64,000 nt of DNA from Bacteroidota bacterium (lineage in GTDB: Bacteria > Bacteroidota > Ignavibacteria > Tepidaquicellales > Tepidaquicellaceae): the NCBI GenBank assembly GCA_018266835.1, contig JAFDZP010000002.1, forward strand, positions 1,587,302 to 1,651,301, written 5' to 3'. Position 1 is the stretch's first letter, and each line of letters begins with the position of its first letter. The notes beneath the pieces were generated by a model, which saw only the letters and a list, made by a program, of their open reading frames with translations, made no database searches and was not told the origin of the DNA. Made by a program: the position numbers and the translations under genes. Of this stretch, positions 13,709 to 48,179 are shown one piece after another.

Positions 13709-14029
13709 AGGAACACAGATAATTATGATTTTTATGATGACACAGATTTTTTAATATTATTCGGTTTGAATTAACCCCATCCTTCAGGATGGGGACCAGT
13801 ACACAAACAAATAGAGCCCCCTCCTTACTAAGGAGGGGGAAGGGGGTGGTTAACAATTAAATTTAGCGCAATCATTTTGGTTATCAAGTGCCGATACTCA
13901 TGCGTCAGAATTTACACCTAAATTTTATGATTCAAACCGCCCCCTCAGTCCCCCTCCTTCGTAAGGAGGGGGAAGCAGTATAAGAAAATTTTCTGTGACA
14001 CCATAAAAATCATAGCTATCTGTGTTCCT
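13709..14029. mobile_element. MITE-like element with 38-base terminal inverted repeats
   Basis: Bases 13709-13746 and 13992-14029 are inverted repeats matching at 34 of 38 positions, starting with AGGAACACAGATA. The roughly 320 bases between hold no gene but three palindromes: 13775-13794 (CCCCATCC stem), 13817-13839 and 13950-13972 (both CCCCCTCCTT/AAGGAGGGGG). I see no clear target-site duplication. A partial second copy lies at 47999-48179. Confidence 0.7.
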
Positions 14030-14120: not shown

Positions 14121-14152
14121 TTTGACATTACCAAAAAAAATTTATATTTTTG
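14121..14152 (+). promoter_or_regulatory. Bacteroidota-type promoter of the ABC exporter leader
   Basis: TTTG at 14121-14124 and TATTTTTG at 14145-14152 match TTTG-N20-TAnnTTTG. Transcription would start near 14159, about 285 bases before the first ABC gene. Confidence 0.72.
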
Positions 14153-14195
14153 TAAACCATGAAAATCTAAATCACGGAGATATTACTTTTCAAAA

Positions 14196-14303
14196 ATGAC
14201 AAAAAATAATTTACATATTATCTCAATGTTTGTAGCAGTCGCCCCGCAAGGATGCGATAGAGCGCAAAGTCCGTGGTTTAAGAGGAGGAATTTAGTCAGC
14301 TAA
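14196..14303 (+). CDS. Putative 35-codon leader ORF of the ABC exporter
   Basis: An ATG at 14196 opens a 35-residue frame (begins MTKNNLHIISMFVAVAP, ends KRRNLVS) that stops at 14301-14303. The stop codon falls inside a 7-bp hairpin (14288-14294 with 14301-14307) nested in the possible antiterminator. There is only a weak GGAG 17 bases before the start. The position relative to the two competing helices is what a translated leader in ribosome-mediated attenuation requires. It could also be an incidental frame through a structured RNA. Confidence 0.42.
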   Translation: MTKNNLHIISMFVAVAPQGCDRAQSPWFKRRNLVS

Positions 14304-14336
14304 ATTCAGAACATACCCAACAAGTTTAAACCGCGG
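14271..14336 (+). promoter_or_regulatory. Possible antiterminator helix competing with the downstream terminator
   Basis: CCGTGGTTTAA (14271-14281) can pair with TTAAACCGCGG (14326-14336): 11 pairs with one G-U. The helix encloses a perfect 7-bp hairpin at 14288-14307. Its 3' arm is the same DNA that forms the 5' arm of the terminator, so the two structures exclude each other. Confidence 0.65.
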
Positions 14337-14367
14337 CATTTGAAAAAAGTGACCGCGGTTTTTTTTT
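14328..14367 (+). terminator. Rho-independent terminator in the ABC exporter leader
   Basis: A 9-bp stem AAACCGCGG/CCGCGGTTT (14328-14336 with 14353-14361) is extended inside by CATTT/AAGTG and followed by nine T (14359-14367). It lies 75 bases before the exporter start codon, so it would stop transcription before the genes unless prevented. Confidence 0.88.
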
Positions 14368-14442
14368 ACCCTCCGCGGCACAACAAGACAAAATACGATT
14401 TCTAACTATATTTTATAACAGTAGTTTAAATTCATAAGTTTT

Positions 14443-16362
14443 ATGGAAAACCTGAAAAGACTTTTCGGAATTCTTGGCAAATGGAAGGGATATTATATTC
14501 TTTCAGGGCTGCTTCTTATTCTTTCAACACTCATAAGAATGCTCGAACCCAAAGTTTTGCAAATCACAGTTGATAAGCTCGTGCTTTTATTGCAAGGGGC
14601 AAACGGAAACATAAAGGTCTCCGGAGATTCAATTTCAAAATATTTATTTGATCTGCTTCCGAAAATGACCGGCAATAATGTTGTGAACGTTCTGATGACT
14701 ATTGCCGGAATATTTTTAATTCTTTCTTTTTTCCGCGCAGCGTTCTGGTTTATATCAAGCACGATAACGGCTTCTTCAACTGAGAATGCAATTAAAGAGC
14801 TGAAGGATAAATTGTTCACGCACATTCAGTTTCTGCCGATGACTTATCATTCGCAGATATCAACAGGACAGCTTATTCAGCGATGTACCGGTGACGTGGA
14901 AACAATCAGAAAATTTGCCTCGATGCAGGTAGTTGAAGCTTTAAGAATGGCAGTGTTGTTTATCGGGGCGTTTGTAATGATGCTTTATATCAACGTTCCT
15001 TTTGCATTCATAGCAATAGCGCTTTGCCCCCTGATAATTATAGGCGCAATTTTCTTCTTCAAAAAAGAAATGTTCATCTGGGATGAACACGAAAAAAGGC
15101 AGGACAAGCTTGCAGTAACTGTGCAGGAAAATTTATCAGGCATCAGAGTTGTAAAAGCATTTGCTAAAGAAAAATTTGAGATTGATAAATTCACTGAGCA
15201 GAACGAAGAGAAAAGACAATGGGGATTTAAGCTGCTTAAGCTTCACTCCTACTTCTGGCCTTATTCAGATATTGTAATGTACACTCAGCTTGCAATATGT
15301 ATTTTCATGGGGGGATATTACACTCTTAACGGAATTATTTCAGTCGGTGAGCTTACGGCATTCTACACTTATTCAATGTTTGTTATCTGGCCTTTAAGAA
15401 GACTCGGCCAGCTTGTTAGTGAAATGGGAATGACATCGGTTGCAATCGACAGAATTTATTCGATACTCGGAAGCATCCGTGAAGAAGATAACGGTGAAAT
15501 AAAAGAAGCTGAAAAATTAAAAGGCGAGATAGTTTTTGAGAACGTTACTTTTAATTATGAAGGGCACGATAAGAGTGCGCTCGAAAATATTTCGTTTACT
15601 GTGAAACCCGGAGAGAAAGTTGCGTTGCTCGGTCCTACGGGAGCAGGGAAATCAACAATAATCTCACTGCTTGTAAGATTCTTTGATATTCAGAAGGGAA
15701 AAATTCTTTTAGACGGCAAAGATATTAAAAGCTATACGAAAGAATTACTTAGAAAAAGAATCGGAGTTGTGTTACAAAAGCCGTTCTTGTTCTCGACTTC
15801 GATAAAAGAGAACATTGCATACGGCAACAGAGATGCAGAGACAGAGGACATTATTGACTCTGCAAAAACTGCAAGCATACATGAAATTATCAACGATATT
15901 TTTCCTGATGCTTATAAGACTGTCATAGGAGAAAAAGGAATAAATCTCTCCGGCGGTCAGAAGCAGAGAGTGACGATTGCGAGAACATTGCTAACTAAAC
16001 CTGATATACTTGTGCTTGACGATTCTACTTCAGCAGTTGATACTGAAACTGAATATGAAATCCGCCATGCGCTTGATAAAAAAATGAAAGGCAAAACAAC
16101 TTTCGTTATCACACACAGGATTAACGCAGCAATGGACTGCGATAAAATAATCGTTCTGAACAAAGGTCATATTGTTGAGATGGGAAATCACGAAGAGCTG
16201 ATAAAAAATAACGGCTTCTATAAAAAGATACATGATATACAAATCACACTTGAAGAAGATATCACAGATGAAATAGAAGCAATAAAAGAAGACAAAGATG
16301 ACGATAATGATATTGATGAATTTGACGGACGACAGGAAAAACTTGAAACAGAATTAGTATAA
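14443..16362 (+). CDS. Heterodimeric ABC exporter, subunit with degenerate ATP site
   Basis: This 639-residue half-transporter has an N-terminal six-helix membrane domain (about residues 15-320) and a C-terminal ATPase. Walker A is GPTGAGKS at 397-404, the signature LSGGQ is at 502-506, and the H-loop is His558. Walker B reads ILVLDDSTS: the catalytic Glu is Asp527, so its own ATP site is degenerate, as in one subunit of BmrCD and TM287/288. An acidic tail (about 604-632) is unusual. The partner gene follows after 58 bases. Together they probably export drugs or lipids at the inner membrane. An attenuator-like leader precedes the gene. Confidence 0.9.
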   Translation: MENLKRLFGILGKWKGYYILSGLLLILSTLIRMLEPKVLQITVDKLVLLLQGANGNIKVSGDSISKYLFDLLPKMTGNNVVNVLMTIAGIFLILSFFRAAFWFISSTITASSTENAIKELKDKLFTHIQFLPMTYHSQISTGQLIQRCTGDVETIRKFASMQVVEALRMAVLFIGAFVMMLYINVPFAFIAIALCPLIIIGAIFFFKKEMFIWDEHEKRQDKLAVTVQENLSGIRVVKAFAKEKFEIDKFTEQNEEKRQWGFKLLKLHSYFWPYSDIVMYTQLAICIFMGGYYTLNGIISVGELTAFYTYSMFVIWPLRRLGQLVSEMGMTSVAIDRIYSILGSIREEDNGEIKEAEKLKGEIVFENVTFNYEGHDKSALENISFTVKPGEKVALLGPTGAGKSTIISLLVRFFDIQKGKILLDGKDIKSYTKELLRKRIGVVLQKPFLFSTSIKENIAYGNRDAETEDIIDSAKTASIHEIINDIFPDAYKTVIGEKGINLSGGQKQRVTIARTLLTKPDILVLDDSTSAVDTETEYEIRHALDKKMKGKTTFVITHRINAAMDCDKIIVLNKGHIVEMGNHEELIKNNGFYKKIHDIQITLEEDITDEIEAIKEDKDDDNDIDEFDGRQEKLETELV

Positions 16363-16420: not shown

Positions 16421-18247
16421 ATGAGTAAGCTTAAAGAAGTTAAGTTTGAGAAAAAGGAATCGATATTTCCTTTTCTATTCAGGATGTTAAAATACAGCAT
16501 GCGCTACAGGAAGAATCTGTATTTATTTATTTTCTTCGTTATGTTAGTAGCAGGCATTGAGGCGCTTTTTCCTATAGTATGGATGAAATTTCTGGACACT
16601 GTAATAGTGCCGGGGATTGAAAGTCACAACGGCGGGAATCCGTTTGATAACTCAGGCCTCGTAAAATTTTTTGGGATATATATGCTTTTAGCATTATGCT
16701 TATCTACCTTCGTTCATTTATTTATAAAGAACTGTGGGAAGATACAGGAAAATGTTATGTTCGATATAAGACAGGATATATTCAGAAAATTTCAGGAGCT
16801 TTCATTTTCATACTACGATAAATCTGCCGTAGGCTGGCTGATGACGAGAATTACCTCCGATACTATCAAAGTAACGGAACTTATCTCATGGAACTTCATC
16901 GAAGTTGTCTGGGGAACATTTATGATAATCTTCTGCCTTACTGCAATGTTCATTTACAACTGGAAACTTGCAATGATAGTAGCAGTTACAATTCCCGTGC
17001 TTGTACTGGTATCTACTAAGATAAGAGAGCTGATATTAAAATATTCCAGAGAGTCAAGAATGTATAACTCTATCATCACAGCCGCATACAATGAGCACAT
17101 TAACGGAGTAGAAGTAAATAAATCTCTTGTGCAGGAAGAAGTAGCAAGCAGGGAGTTTGAAAAGCTTTCACAAAAAATGAAAGTTGCTTCATACAAATCT
17201 GCTTACTACAATGCAATGTTTCTGCCATTGGTAATATTTATCGGTTCGATAGCAGCTGCGCTGATAATTTACTATGGAGGATTCATGGTTCTAACTCCTG
17301 AGTCAGGCGTAACGGTTGGTATACTTGCAGCATTCTTCGGATATGCTACATTAATATACGAGCCGATTACAGACCTCTCAAGATTTTATTCACAGGCGCA
17401 GGCATGTATGTCTGCAGGTGAAAGAATTTTCACTTTGCTTGATACAAAGCCGGAGATTCTTGACAGAAAAGATTCGAAAGAATTTGAAAGAATTAACGGT
17501 GAGATTGAATTTGAGAACGTTACTTTCTACTATGAAAAAGATAAGCCGGTTCTTGAAAGCATCGATTTAAAAATCAAAGCCGGACAGTCAGTCGCACTTG
17601 TCGGTGAAACAGGAGGAGGAAAATCTACATTCATTAATCTGATATGCAGATTTTACGAGCCTAAAGGTGGTAAAATAAAAATTGACGGAATAGATTATAT
17701 GGATATGACTGTGGAAAGTCTGCGAAGCCAGCTTGGTGTAGTATTGCAAACTCCGCATTTATTCTCAGGCACAATTCGCGAGAATATTCAATACGGAAGA
17801 GAACTTGCAAGCGAAGCAGAAATAATCGAAGCATTGCGCTTAGCAGGCGGAGAGGAATTTGCAGATAAGCTTGATGAAGATGTCGGCGAAGCAGGCGAGA
17901 ATTTATCACTCGGTGAAAAGCAGCTGATATCTTTTGCAAGGGCAATACTTGCCAATCCGAGAATTTTTATAATGGATGAAGCGACATCATCGGTTGATAC
18001 TTTGACGGAAGCAAAAATCCAGAACGGTATTCACGGAATTATGGAAGGCAGAACGTCGCTTATAATTGCTCACAGACTTTCCACAATTAAGAACTGCGAT
18101 AGAATTCTCGTGGTGAAAAAAGGAAAGATAGTAGAAGACGGAACGCATAGAGAGCTAATGAAAAAGAAAGGTTATTACTATCAGCTTTATACAAAGCAAT
18201 TGCGTGATGAAAAGGAAAAGGAATTTGAAATGCAGGAACAACAATAA
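16421..18247 (+). CDS. Heterodimeric ABC exporter, catalytic subunit
   Basis: This 608-residue half-transporter has a six-helix membrane domain and an ATPase with Walker A GETGGGKS at 395-402, a complete Walker B IFIMDEATS with catalytic Glu520, and H-loop His551. The signature is altered to LSLGEKQ (495-501). In the dimer its signature pairs with the degenerate Walker site of the upstream subunit, while its own intact Walker site pairs with the partner's normal LSGGQ. The two subunits therefore complement each other and give one active ATP site. A small hairpin (TCCTGC/GCAGGA, near 16380) lies between the two genes. Confidence 0.9.
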   Translation: MSKLKEVKFEKKESIFPFLFRMLKYSMRYRKNLYLFIFFVMLVAGIEALFPIVWMKFLDTVIVPGIESHNGGNPFDNSGLVKFFGIYMLLALCLSTFVHLFIKNCGKIQENVMFDIRQDIFRKFQELSFSYYDKSAVGWLMTRITSDTIKVTELISWNFIEVVWGTFMIIFCLTAMFIYNWKLAMIVAVTIPVLVLVSTKIRELILKYSRESRMYNSIITAAYNEHINGVEVNKSLVQEEVASREFEKLSQKMKVASYKSAYYNAMFLPLVIFIGSIAAALIIYYGGFMVLTPESGVTVGILAAFFGYATLIYEPITDLSRFYSQAQACMSAGERIFTLLDTKPEILDRKDSKEFERINGEIEFENVTFYYEKDKPVLESIDLKIKAGQSVALVGETGGGKSTFINLICRFYEPKGGKIKIDGIDYMDMTVESLRSQLGVVLQTPHLFSGTIRENIQYGRELASEAEIIEALRLAGGEEFADKLDEDVGEAGENLSLGEKQLISFARAILANPRIFIMDEATSSVDTLTEAKIQNGIHGIMEGRTSLIIAHRLSTIKNCDRILVVKKGKIVEDGTHRELMKKKGYYYQLYTKQLRDEKEKEFEMQEQQ

Positions 18248-18330: not shown

Positions 18331-19107
18331 ATGCTGGAAAACTACAACGAAAGAAATTACAATGAGTACCCTGAGACGATGGCTAAGTTTTATGATATAG
18401 TTTATGCAGGAATAAGAGACGGCGTGGATAAAAAATTTTACGTAGATAGAATTCTATCTGCTGAGGGACCTGTGCTTGAAGTCGGTGTGGGTACCGGAAG
18501 ACTATTCCTTGAAGCGCTTAACAAAGGCGCAGATGTTTATGGAATAGATATCAGCGATAATATGTTGAATGTATTGAAGAGTAAGCTTGAAGAGCATGAG
18601 CATTACAGGGTTACCCGCGCAGATATGAGGGATTTTGAGCTGGATAAAAAATTTAAGTTAATTATTTCTCCGTTCAGAGTTTTCTCACATATGTACACAG
18701 TTGAAGATCAGCTTGCTGCTTTGCAATGCATTAAAAACCATTTAGATGATGACGGCATTTTTATTTTTGATTTGTTTGTTCCGAACCCTTATATGATTTC
18801 AAAAGACATTGATGAGTTTCTTGATTTTGAGGGTGAATACGAGCAAGGAAAAATGCTTCAGCGATTAGCTTCAGTGAAAACGGATTATATTAACCAGACA
18901 AATCACATCACCATGAAATTAAAATGGGAAGATGATAATGGTTATAACATTGTAGATAATAAATTCAGCATGAGGTACTACTTCCGCTATGAACTTGAGC
19001 ATTTAATTAAGGAAAGCGGAATGAAAATAAAAAATATGTACGGAGATTATAATTACTCTCCACTGACAAATAAATCAAATGATTTTGTTACTGAATGTAC
19101 AAAATAG
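18331..19107 (+). CDS. Class I SAM-dependent methyltransferase
   Basis: This 258-residue cytoplasmic enzyme has motif I VLEVGVGTGR at residues 48-57, an acidic residue after strand 2 in VYGIDISDNM, and a motif resembling ITRADMRDF (here VTRADMRDF) near 95-103. This is a Rossmann-fold methyltransferase of the Methyltransf_11/25 type. Its substrate cannot be read from the sequence. It is followed by rsgA after 31 bases on the same strand, with no obvious functional link. Confidence 0.82.
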   Translation: MLENYNERNYNEYPETMAKFYDIVYAGIRDGVDKKFYVDRILSAEGPVLEVGVGTGRLFLEALNKGADVYGIDISDNMLNVLKSKLEEHEHYRVTRADMRDFELDKKFKLIISPFRVFSHMYTVEDQLAALQCIKNHLDDDGIFIFDLFVPNPYMISKDIDEFLDFEGEYEQGKMLQRLASVKTDYINQTNHITMKLKWEDDNGYNIVDNKFSMRYYFRYELEHLIKESGMKIKNMYGDYNYSPLTNKSNDFVTECTK

Positions 19108-19138
19108 TTGATTTAATTTTACAAACTTAATTCATTGA

Positions 19139-20230
19139 ATGAATTTAAACAAACTTGGTTACAATTCTTTTTTTGAAGCTTACTTTAACGAATATGCTTC
19201 AGAGGGACAAATTCCCGGAAGAATAGCTATACAGAATTTATCAAACTTCATAGTCTATACGGAGCTTGGCGAACTTCTCGGAGAGGTATCCGGCAAGTTC
19301 CGTTTTGAAGTGGAGAACGGTACGGCAGAAGTAAACGGTTTCCCCGCTGTAGGTGACTGGGTATTGCTTCGCGCTTTCCCTGAAGAAAATAAAGCTATCA
19401 TAGATAAAATTCTTCCTCGTAAAAATAAATTTTCGCGAAAGGAAGCGGGCGAGAAAACTGTTGAGCAAATCGTTGCTGCTAATATTGATATTGTATTCAT
19501 TGTGAATGCTCTGAATCATGATTTTAATCTCCGTCGACTTGAGCGTTATCTTACAACTGTAATGGATAATGAAATAAGACCTGTTATTATTTTAAGCAAG
19601 GCTGATCTGGCTTCTGACTTGGACACAAAGATTGAAGAAGTAAAAGATGTTGTTGGCGTAATTCCTATTCACGCAATCAGCGTAAAAGAAAATTTCGGAC
19701 TTGAAGAGCTTGAACAATACTTTGTTAACAATAACACCGTGGCAGTACTTGGTTCATCAGGTGTCGGTAAGTCTACTCTGATAAACACTCTAGCCGGCGA
19801 AGAAAAATTCTTTGTTCAGGAAGTGAGTGACTTCTCCAATAAAGGAAAGCATACAACTACTCACAGGGAAATGATAATTCTTGCAAACGGCGGACTTATA
19901 ATCGACACGCCCGGAATGCGTGAGTTGCAGCTTTGGGACGGCGGCGAAGGTGTTGCCGAAACATTCGATGACCTGGAAGAGCTTGCGCTCCAATGTAAAT
20001 TTTCAAACTGCCTTCATGCAGATGAGCCCGGGTGCGCAATCCGTGCTGCAATAAATAACGGGGAAATAGATGAAACAAGATTAAAAAGTTATTTAAAGCT
20101 TATGCGTGAAGTAAAGTATATCGAATCAAAGCAGAATGTAAAAACGGCAATTGAAAATAAAAAGAAGTGGAAACAGGTTCACAAATCGTTGAAGGATTTT
20201 GATAAGAAGAATAAGGGAAAGCGTGGTTAA
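19139..20230 (+). CDS. rsgA: Ribosome small-subunit-dependent GTPase A
   Basis: This 363-residue circularly permuted GTPase helps late maturation of the 30S subunit. An N-terminal OB-fold domain (residues 1-95) is followed by the permuted G motifs: a degenerate G4 SKAD at 153-156, then G1 GSSGVGKST at 205-213, and G3 DTPG at 256-259. The C-terminal zinc site has Cys286, Cys291, His293 and Cys299, the CX4-5CXHX5C pattern of the family. The length is normal. It converges with dnaG, with only six bases between the stops. Confidence 0.94.
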   Translation: MNLNKLGYNSFFEAYFNEYASEGQIPGRIAIQNLSNFIVYTELGELLGEVSGKFRFEVENGTAEVNGFPAVGDWVLLRAFPEENKAIIDKILPRKNKFSRKEAGEKTVEQIVAANIDIVFIVNALNHDFNLRRLERYLTTVMDNEIRPVIILSKADLASDLDTKIEEVKDVVGVIPIHAISVKENFGLEELEQYFVNNNTVAVLGSSGVGKSTLINTLAGEEKFFVQEVSDFSNKGKHTTTHREMIILANGGLIIDTPGMRELQLWDGGEGVAETFDDLEELALQCKFSNCLHADEPGCAIRAAINNGEIDETRLKSYLKLMREVKYIESKQNVKTAIENKKKWKQVHKSLKDFDKKNKGKRG

Positions 20231-47998: not shown

Positions 47999-48179
47999 CC
48001 CCCTCCTTTACAAGGAGGAGGATTGAGGGAGTGGTTAAATTTATCTAAAGCTATGATGAATTTTAAAAACTCTCAGTATTGTTTTTACAATACCGGGTTG
48101 AACAAAATCCGTCAAAAATCCGTCATTTCAAAGAAATTTTTCAATCGTGTCATCATATTAAATCATAAAAATCTGTGTT
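47999..48179. mobile_element. Partial MITE-like element abutting the LOG gene
   Basis: The palindrome CCCCCTCCTT/AAGGAGGAGG (47999-48021), the following GTGGTTAAATTTA, and an end sequence at about 48147-48179 match the internal part and terminal repeat of the element at 13709-14029. No left terminal repeat is found, so it is truncated. Its right end is the base before the LOG start codon. Confidence 0.6.

Follow-up and report, generated by a model that had tools for sequence, protein, structure and literature searches.

A conserved leader upstream of a heterodimeric ABC exporter in Bacteroidota, most likely a ribosome-mediated transcription attenuator

Introduction

What decides whether the two ABC exporter genes at this locus are transcribed? 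In the window, by which we mean the whole stretch of 64,000 nucleotides analysed, from a Bacteroidota genome of 4.0 Mb (G000), these genes are preceded by a short open reading frame and by potential RNA structures that compete for the same bases. An earlier note had proposed an attenuator resembling that of bmrB-bmrCD from Bacillus subtilis, where a drug-stalled ribosome gives read-through and where the bmrB terminator is located within the coding region (PMC4191407). From a comparison with leaders of orthologous ABC genes, we conclude that this leader is a real, conserved attenuator, most likely one that acts by ribosome-mediated transcription attenuation.

Anatomy of the leader

The features of the locus are as follows.

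14121..14152, forward strand: promoter, with TTTGACA at 14121 and TATATTTTTG at 14143-14152
14168..14178, forward strand: strand A (UAAAUCACGGA), anti-antiterminator predicted to pair with B, as judged by duplex energy against shuffles
14196..14303, forward strand: leader ORF of 35 codons (MTKNNLHIISMFVAVAPQGCDRAQSPWFKRRNLVS, then stop), in frame in all 33 leaders
14270..14281, forward strand: strand B (TCCGTGGTTTAA), within the leader ORF, where CCG TGG encodes Pro-Trp; its alternative partners are A and C
14288..14307, forward strand: small hairpin around the leader stop codon, predicted in the window
14325..14336, forward strand: strand C (TTTAAACCGCGG), which pairs with B in the antiterminator and provides the 5' arm of the terminator
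14353..14367, forward strand: strand D, 3' arm of the terminator, with U-tract; GCGG and T-run are invariant in the alignment
14443..16362, forward strand: ABC1, exporter half with degenerate Walker B (LVLDD, in LVLDDSTSAVD) and with LSGGQ
16421..18247, forward strand: ABC2, exporter half with catalytic Glu (IMDEA, in IMDEATSSVD) and signature LSLGE

Every element that the earlier note had named could be confirmed base by base at its given position. Both promoter boxes and the 35-codon frame were read at the positions listed. The Bacteroidota -7 consensus is TAnnTTTG, which TATATTTTTG also matches. Strands B and C form a continuous 11-pair helix (14271-14281 with 14326-14336) with one G-U pair. 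The strong terminator (ACCGCGG...CCGCGGT plus T-run, 14330-14367, -17.9 kcal/mol) starts 26 nt past the leader stop codon. As strand C is common to B:C and C:D, antiterminator and terminator are mutually exclusive, and both precede the first structural gene. The stop codon (14301-14303) is inside the small hairpin, which itself lies within the loop of B:C.

The two-structure account was correct for B:C and C:D but had overlooked a third helix. Strand A (14168-14178) forms 11 pairs with 14270-14280 and thus competes with B:C; this helix belongs to the minimum-energy fold of the window leader. The alternative states are A:B together with C:D, or B:C. The region 14155-14375 folds with -56 kcal/mol, compared to -37.6 +/- 3.6 for shuffles (z -5.06), and the A:B duplex alone reaches -15.1 kcal/mol, compared to -6.7 +/- 1.8.

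Two further observations were made in the window. A mini-ORF (ATG AAA ATC TAA, 14159-14170) occurs near the expected transcript start and overlaps strand A; the leader from the same genus has ATG AAA ATT TAA, and translation of the mini-ORF would hinder A:B. In addition, a dispersed palindrome, CCCTCCTTnnnAAGGAGGG, has three copies in the window (13819-13837, 13952-13970, 48001-48019), while shuffles give none.

The exporter genes

As judged from their motifs and database relatives, ABC1 and ABC2 make up a heterodimeric exporter in which one ATP site is degenerate, as in BmrCD, TM287/288 and TmrAB: the genes are adjacent, one half has D in place of the catalytic E, and the other has a noncanonical signature. 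Among solved bacterial structures, ABC2 is nearest by sequence to TmrA, then to TM_0288 and only then to BmrD/YheH, and so is closer to the former two than to its counterpart in bmrB-bmrCD. ABC2 follows ABC1 in 12 of 12 loci examined.

In three of these loci, which include one from the same genus as the window, a gene for the RNA ligase RtcB intervenes between the two halves (L085, 3635-4831 on the reverse strand; L081, 2336-3532; L088). It is absent from this position in the window. The Rtc system is reported to support survival of E. coli exposed to ribosome-targeting antibiotics (PMC12606134), and an RtcB gene inside the operon of three relatives fits this theme. Genes for a class I methyltransferase and for the ribosome-assembly GTPase RsgA come after the ABC pair in the window (18331-20230) and in several relatives.

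Occurrence in relatives

Of 391 genomes of the class, 31 have an ABC1 ortholog: 15 of the 29 genomes of the window's own family (f1, window included), 13 of the neighbouring family f2 and three of another family, f30. No ABC1 ortholog turned up outside the order when proteins of 395 genomes from across the phylum were searched. A DNA similarity search in the relatives yielded only one clear match. This leader, from the same genus (G001; its contig corresponds to the MAG Bacteroidetes bacterium isolate SZAS-86), is 73% identical and precedes the same ABC gene. The other leaders were missed by this search because the body of the ORF diverges, and the regions upstream of the orthologs were used instead. 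This resulted in a comparison set of 33 leaders (that of the window and 32 others) from the three families.

The relatives have a common plan: a promoter, a short ATG-initiated ORF that contains B, strand C, a terminator with a long T-run, and ABC1. Most promoters have a -7 box of the TTTG type, and the TTG and TAnnTTTG boxes resemble those of the window. A terminator is present in every one of the 33 leaders, and ABC1 begins 26-249 nt beyond it. This plan was read from the DNA upstream of 32 ABC1 genes, and one more copy, in G042, conforms to it as well. G042 has four copies of leader plus ABC1 in all (L032, L035, L037, L086), each with an intact leader ORF.

Conservation of the helices

Because MAFFT misplaced B in the long leaders when 30 leaders were aligned, pairs were counted for each family separately. 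In f2, both sides of B:C have changed in concert, from U-A to C-G in five leaders and from C-G to G-C in one, and the covariation score exceeds all 500 shuffles and all slid controls. In the diverged leader L038, B:C pairs GUCUGUCGGC with GCCGCAGAC, a different sequence with further double changes. The B:C core is invariant in f1, which makes this family silent on covariation. In four long leaders (L011, L016-L018) the segments used to fold terminator and antiterminator stopped short of B and are uninformative on B:C. The f2 equivalent of the stop-codon hairpin has 90% of its cells paired.

Strand A differs by lineage, being CACGGA in most f1 leaders and CUAACC-like in f2. Matched pairs of UTR and B reach -13.2 and -12.6 kcal/mol, compared to -7.8 and -9.1 when swapped between the families. 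In 25 of the 33 leaders, A:B is stronger than in 190 or more of 200 shuffles; in the other eight it is not clearly above chance. The covariation check that the earlier note had called for thus came out in favour of an attenuator: A:B and B:C covary between the lineages and, on this comparative evidence, both helices are under selection.

Coding evidence for the leader ORF

A conserved short ORF in leaders of orthologous ABC genes had also been set as a test, and it is found throughout, with strand B being read in the identical codon phase in 33 of 33 leaders. The peptides have 33 to 48 codons and are strongly divergent, yet the frame stays open. By shuffling, the chance that the phase of B stays open over 24 codons or more is 1-8% per locus; L038 falls just under this length threshold. 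Substitutions at codon positions 1, 2 and 3 number 35, 43 and 76 in f2A and 249, 203 and 333 in f2B. Column shuffles reached the observed conservativeness in 1 of 500 cases in f2A and in 20 of 500 in f2B, a test that is moderate when taken alone. The leader ORF is thus conserved as a coding sequence, and is predicted to be translated.

This bears on the ligand-binding riboswitch, which the earlier note had named as the main alternative. In such a device A:B would close an aptamer, and the ligand would choose between A:B, which goes with the terminator, and B:C, the antiterminator. The layout of A:B, B:C and C:D is indeed common among riboswitches too, and the region from A to B folds well in the window. 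However, the body of the f1 ORF between A and B has 41% identity, compared to 78% in B and 82% in C-D; its length varies, and in every leader it carries an open frame in phase with B. Rfam gave nothing relevant for the leader, at the gathering score or at a relaxed threshold. The riboswitch is weakened because the region from A to B is poorly conserved in f1 and is coding, and we regard it as quite unlikely.

Proposed mechanism

The conserved helices and the predicted translation of the ORF are best accounted for by ribosome-mediated attenuation. Upon free translation, the ribosome would cross B, reach the stop codon and sit between B and C. There it would block B:C, so that C:D forms and transcription ends. 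A ribosome stalled within about the first 20 codons would leave B free ahead of it; B:C would form before D is made, and RNA polymerase would read through into the ABC exporter genes. The natural signal would be a ribosome-targeting inhibitor that is removed by the exporter.

In the folding calculations, the RNA extended up to C, so that D did not yet exist, and the ribosome covered the transcript as far as 15 nt past the first base of its P-site codon. P(B:C) then averages 0.92-0.97 for ribosomes located 15-48 nt upstream of B, drops to about 0.06 at -9 nt and is about 0 from B to the stop codon. B and the stop codon are separated by 25-34 nt in most leaders (46-49 in one subgroup, 13 in L040), and the stop codon and C by 25-37 nt; it is by these spacings that a terminating ribosome would be placed between B and C. 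Taken together, pre-D folding and spacing predict termination upon free translation and read-through upon an early stall. The earlier note had expected a ribosome at the stop codon to break the helix and an earlier stall to permit read-through, and the geometry computed before D exists agrees with this.

When the full leader with D is folded at equilibrium, the terminator wins nearly always, even with B free, and the ribosome positions are not discriminated. Since the terminator is the equilibrium winner once D is present, the switch must be a kinetic one, governed by the order of folding. In the untranslated leader of the window, P(A:B) is 0.95 before C is made, and the pre-D equilibrium without a ribosome also permits B:C in many leaders, that of the window included. 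The untranslated state is thus ambiguous in the model: A:B would form first, and C could displace A. We infer that the operon is off unless ribosomes stall, and the ABC genes are likely to be induced by translation inhibitors.

Alternatively, the leader might be an attenuator that senses charged tRNA, e.g. for Trp, Pro or Arg. Pro occurs in 32 of the 33 leaders and Trp in 17. Arg-Arg codons, mostly CGG AGG (AGG AGG in the window), follow B in most leaders, and CGG does not occur among the 3778 codons of seven window genes. However, Pro-Trp is located in B and Arg-Arg after B, where a stall hides B and favours termination, which is the wrong sign. Trp is also missing from most f2 leaders, single-codon runs before B are absent, and the target is an exporter rather than a biosynthesis gene. 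We consider amino-acid sensing very unlikely. A ribosome slowed at the Arg-Arg codons would sit over B and so hold the operon in its off state. These bases also build one side of the hairpin at the stop codon, a possible reason for their presence.

Within ribosome-mediated attenuation, the peptides might represent a new family of drug-specific arrest peptides. A pair consisting of a hydrophobic residue and D or G occurs 3-4 codons before B in 21 of the 33 leaders, many of which are close relatives, and RNA constraints may also account for it. A stall at or near this pair would put the ribosome front just at B, and the rare CGG-AGG codons would park a normally translating ribosome over B, with the operon kept tightly off. 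We offer this reading tentatively and consider it doubtful. If it were true, the fast changes of the peptide would track the local spectrum of ribosome-targeting natural products. The macrolide arrest motif is K/R-x-K/R. The Arg-Arg codons were considered as a sensing site of this type, which is unsupported as they lie after B, where stalling favours termination.

Link to the ABC gene

Ten f1 leaders were used to build a covariance model for the 3' half of the element. This model matches 30 of the 391 genomes of the class, and each of these is one of the 31 that carry an ABC1 ortholog; the remaining one (G040) carries the diverged leader L038. There is no match in the 360 genomes without an ABC1 ortholog, in a search with stricter filters that lose weak matches. 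At the loci read in detail, the leader is directly upstream of the ABC gene, while genes further upstream vary. By this co-occurrence, the leader element is tied to the ABC gene. That it is instead an independent small RNA with its end at the terminator, unrelated to the ABC gene, is very unlikely: although the default product should be a terminated RNA of about 200 nt, all model-matched genomes carry the ABC gene, the loci read in detail have the leader directly upstream of it, and a conserved antiterminator would serve no purpose.

Comparison with known systems

The leader shares with bmrB-bmrCD a short ORF, here predicted to be translated, upstream of a heterodimeric ABC exporter, and a terminator, an antiterminator and an anti-antiterminator in the leader (PMC4191407). 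It differs from bmrB, which has 53 codons and the terminator in the coding region, in having 35 codons, a terminator past the stop codon and a strand A that precedes the ORF. The resemblance that the earlier note had seen is one of logic and target; by its layout the leader is set apart from the bmrB family.

A terminator that follows the stop codon is the layout of ermK- or trp-type attenuators. In ermK from Bacillus, which controls a 23S rRNA methylase and to which the likeness is by description, a leader ORF likewise comes before an antiterminator/terminator choice (PMC5418344). The mode proposed here is also that of the mef-msr leaders (PMC5418344, PMC10314930). The msrD leader MsrDL also combines a peptide with an intrinsic terminator before a macrolide-resistance gene, and a drug stall gives read-through, but the peptide has six residues, the stalled ribosome directly obstructs the terminator, and the product is an ABC-F factor rather than an exporter (PMC10314930). 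At the toiL uORF of E. coli topAI, several antibiotic classes are sensed by ribosomes that stall at positions differing between them, something for which the long stretch before B would leave room here; toiL acts via the ribosome-binding site and Rho, without an intrinsic terminator (PMC12121999). The tetQ attenuator of Bacteroides, likewise from Bacteroidota and attenuating an antibiotic-resistance gene, controls translation, and its target is a ribosomal protection gene (PMC5418344).

We found no earlier description of this leader family in the open-access literature. The family is new, while the logic of ribosome attenuation is already known from Bacillus. Most documented cases in which drug-resistance and exporter genes are under transcription attenuation that senses the ribosome come from Firmicutes. 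A conserved family in an order of Bacteroidota suggests that a distant phylum has either arrived at this logic independently or kept it. The mode of regulation hints that the ABC pair may export ribosome inhibitors, and the 33 natural leader peptides are a resource for finding out which drugs stall them.
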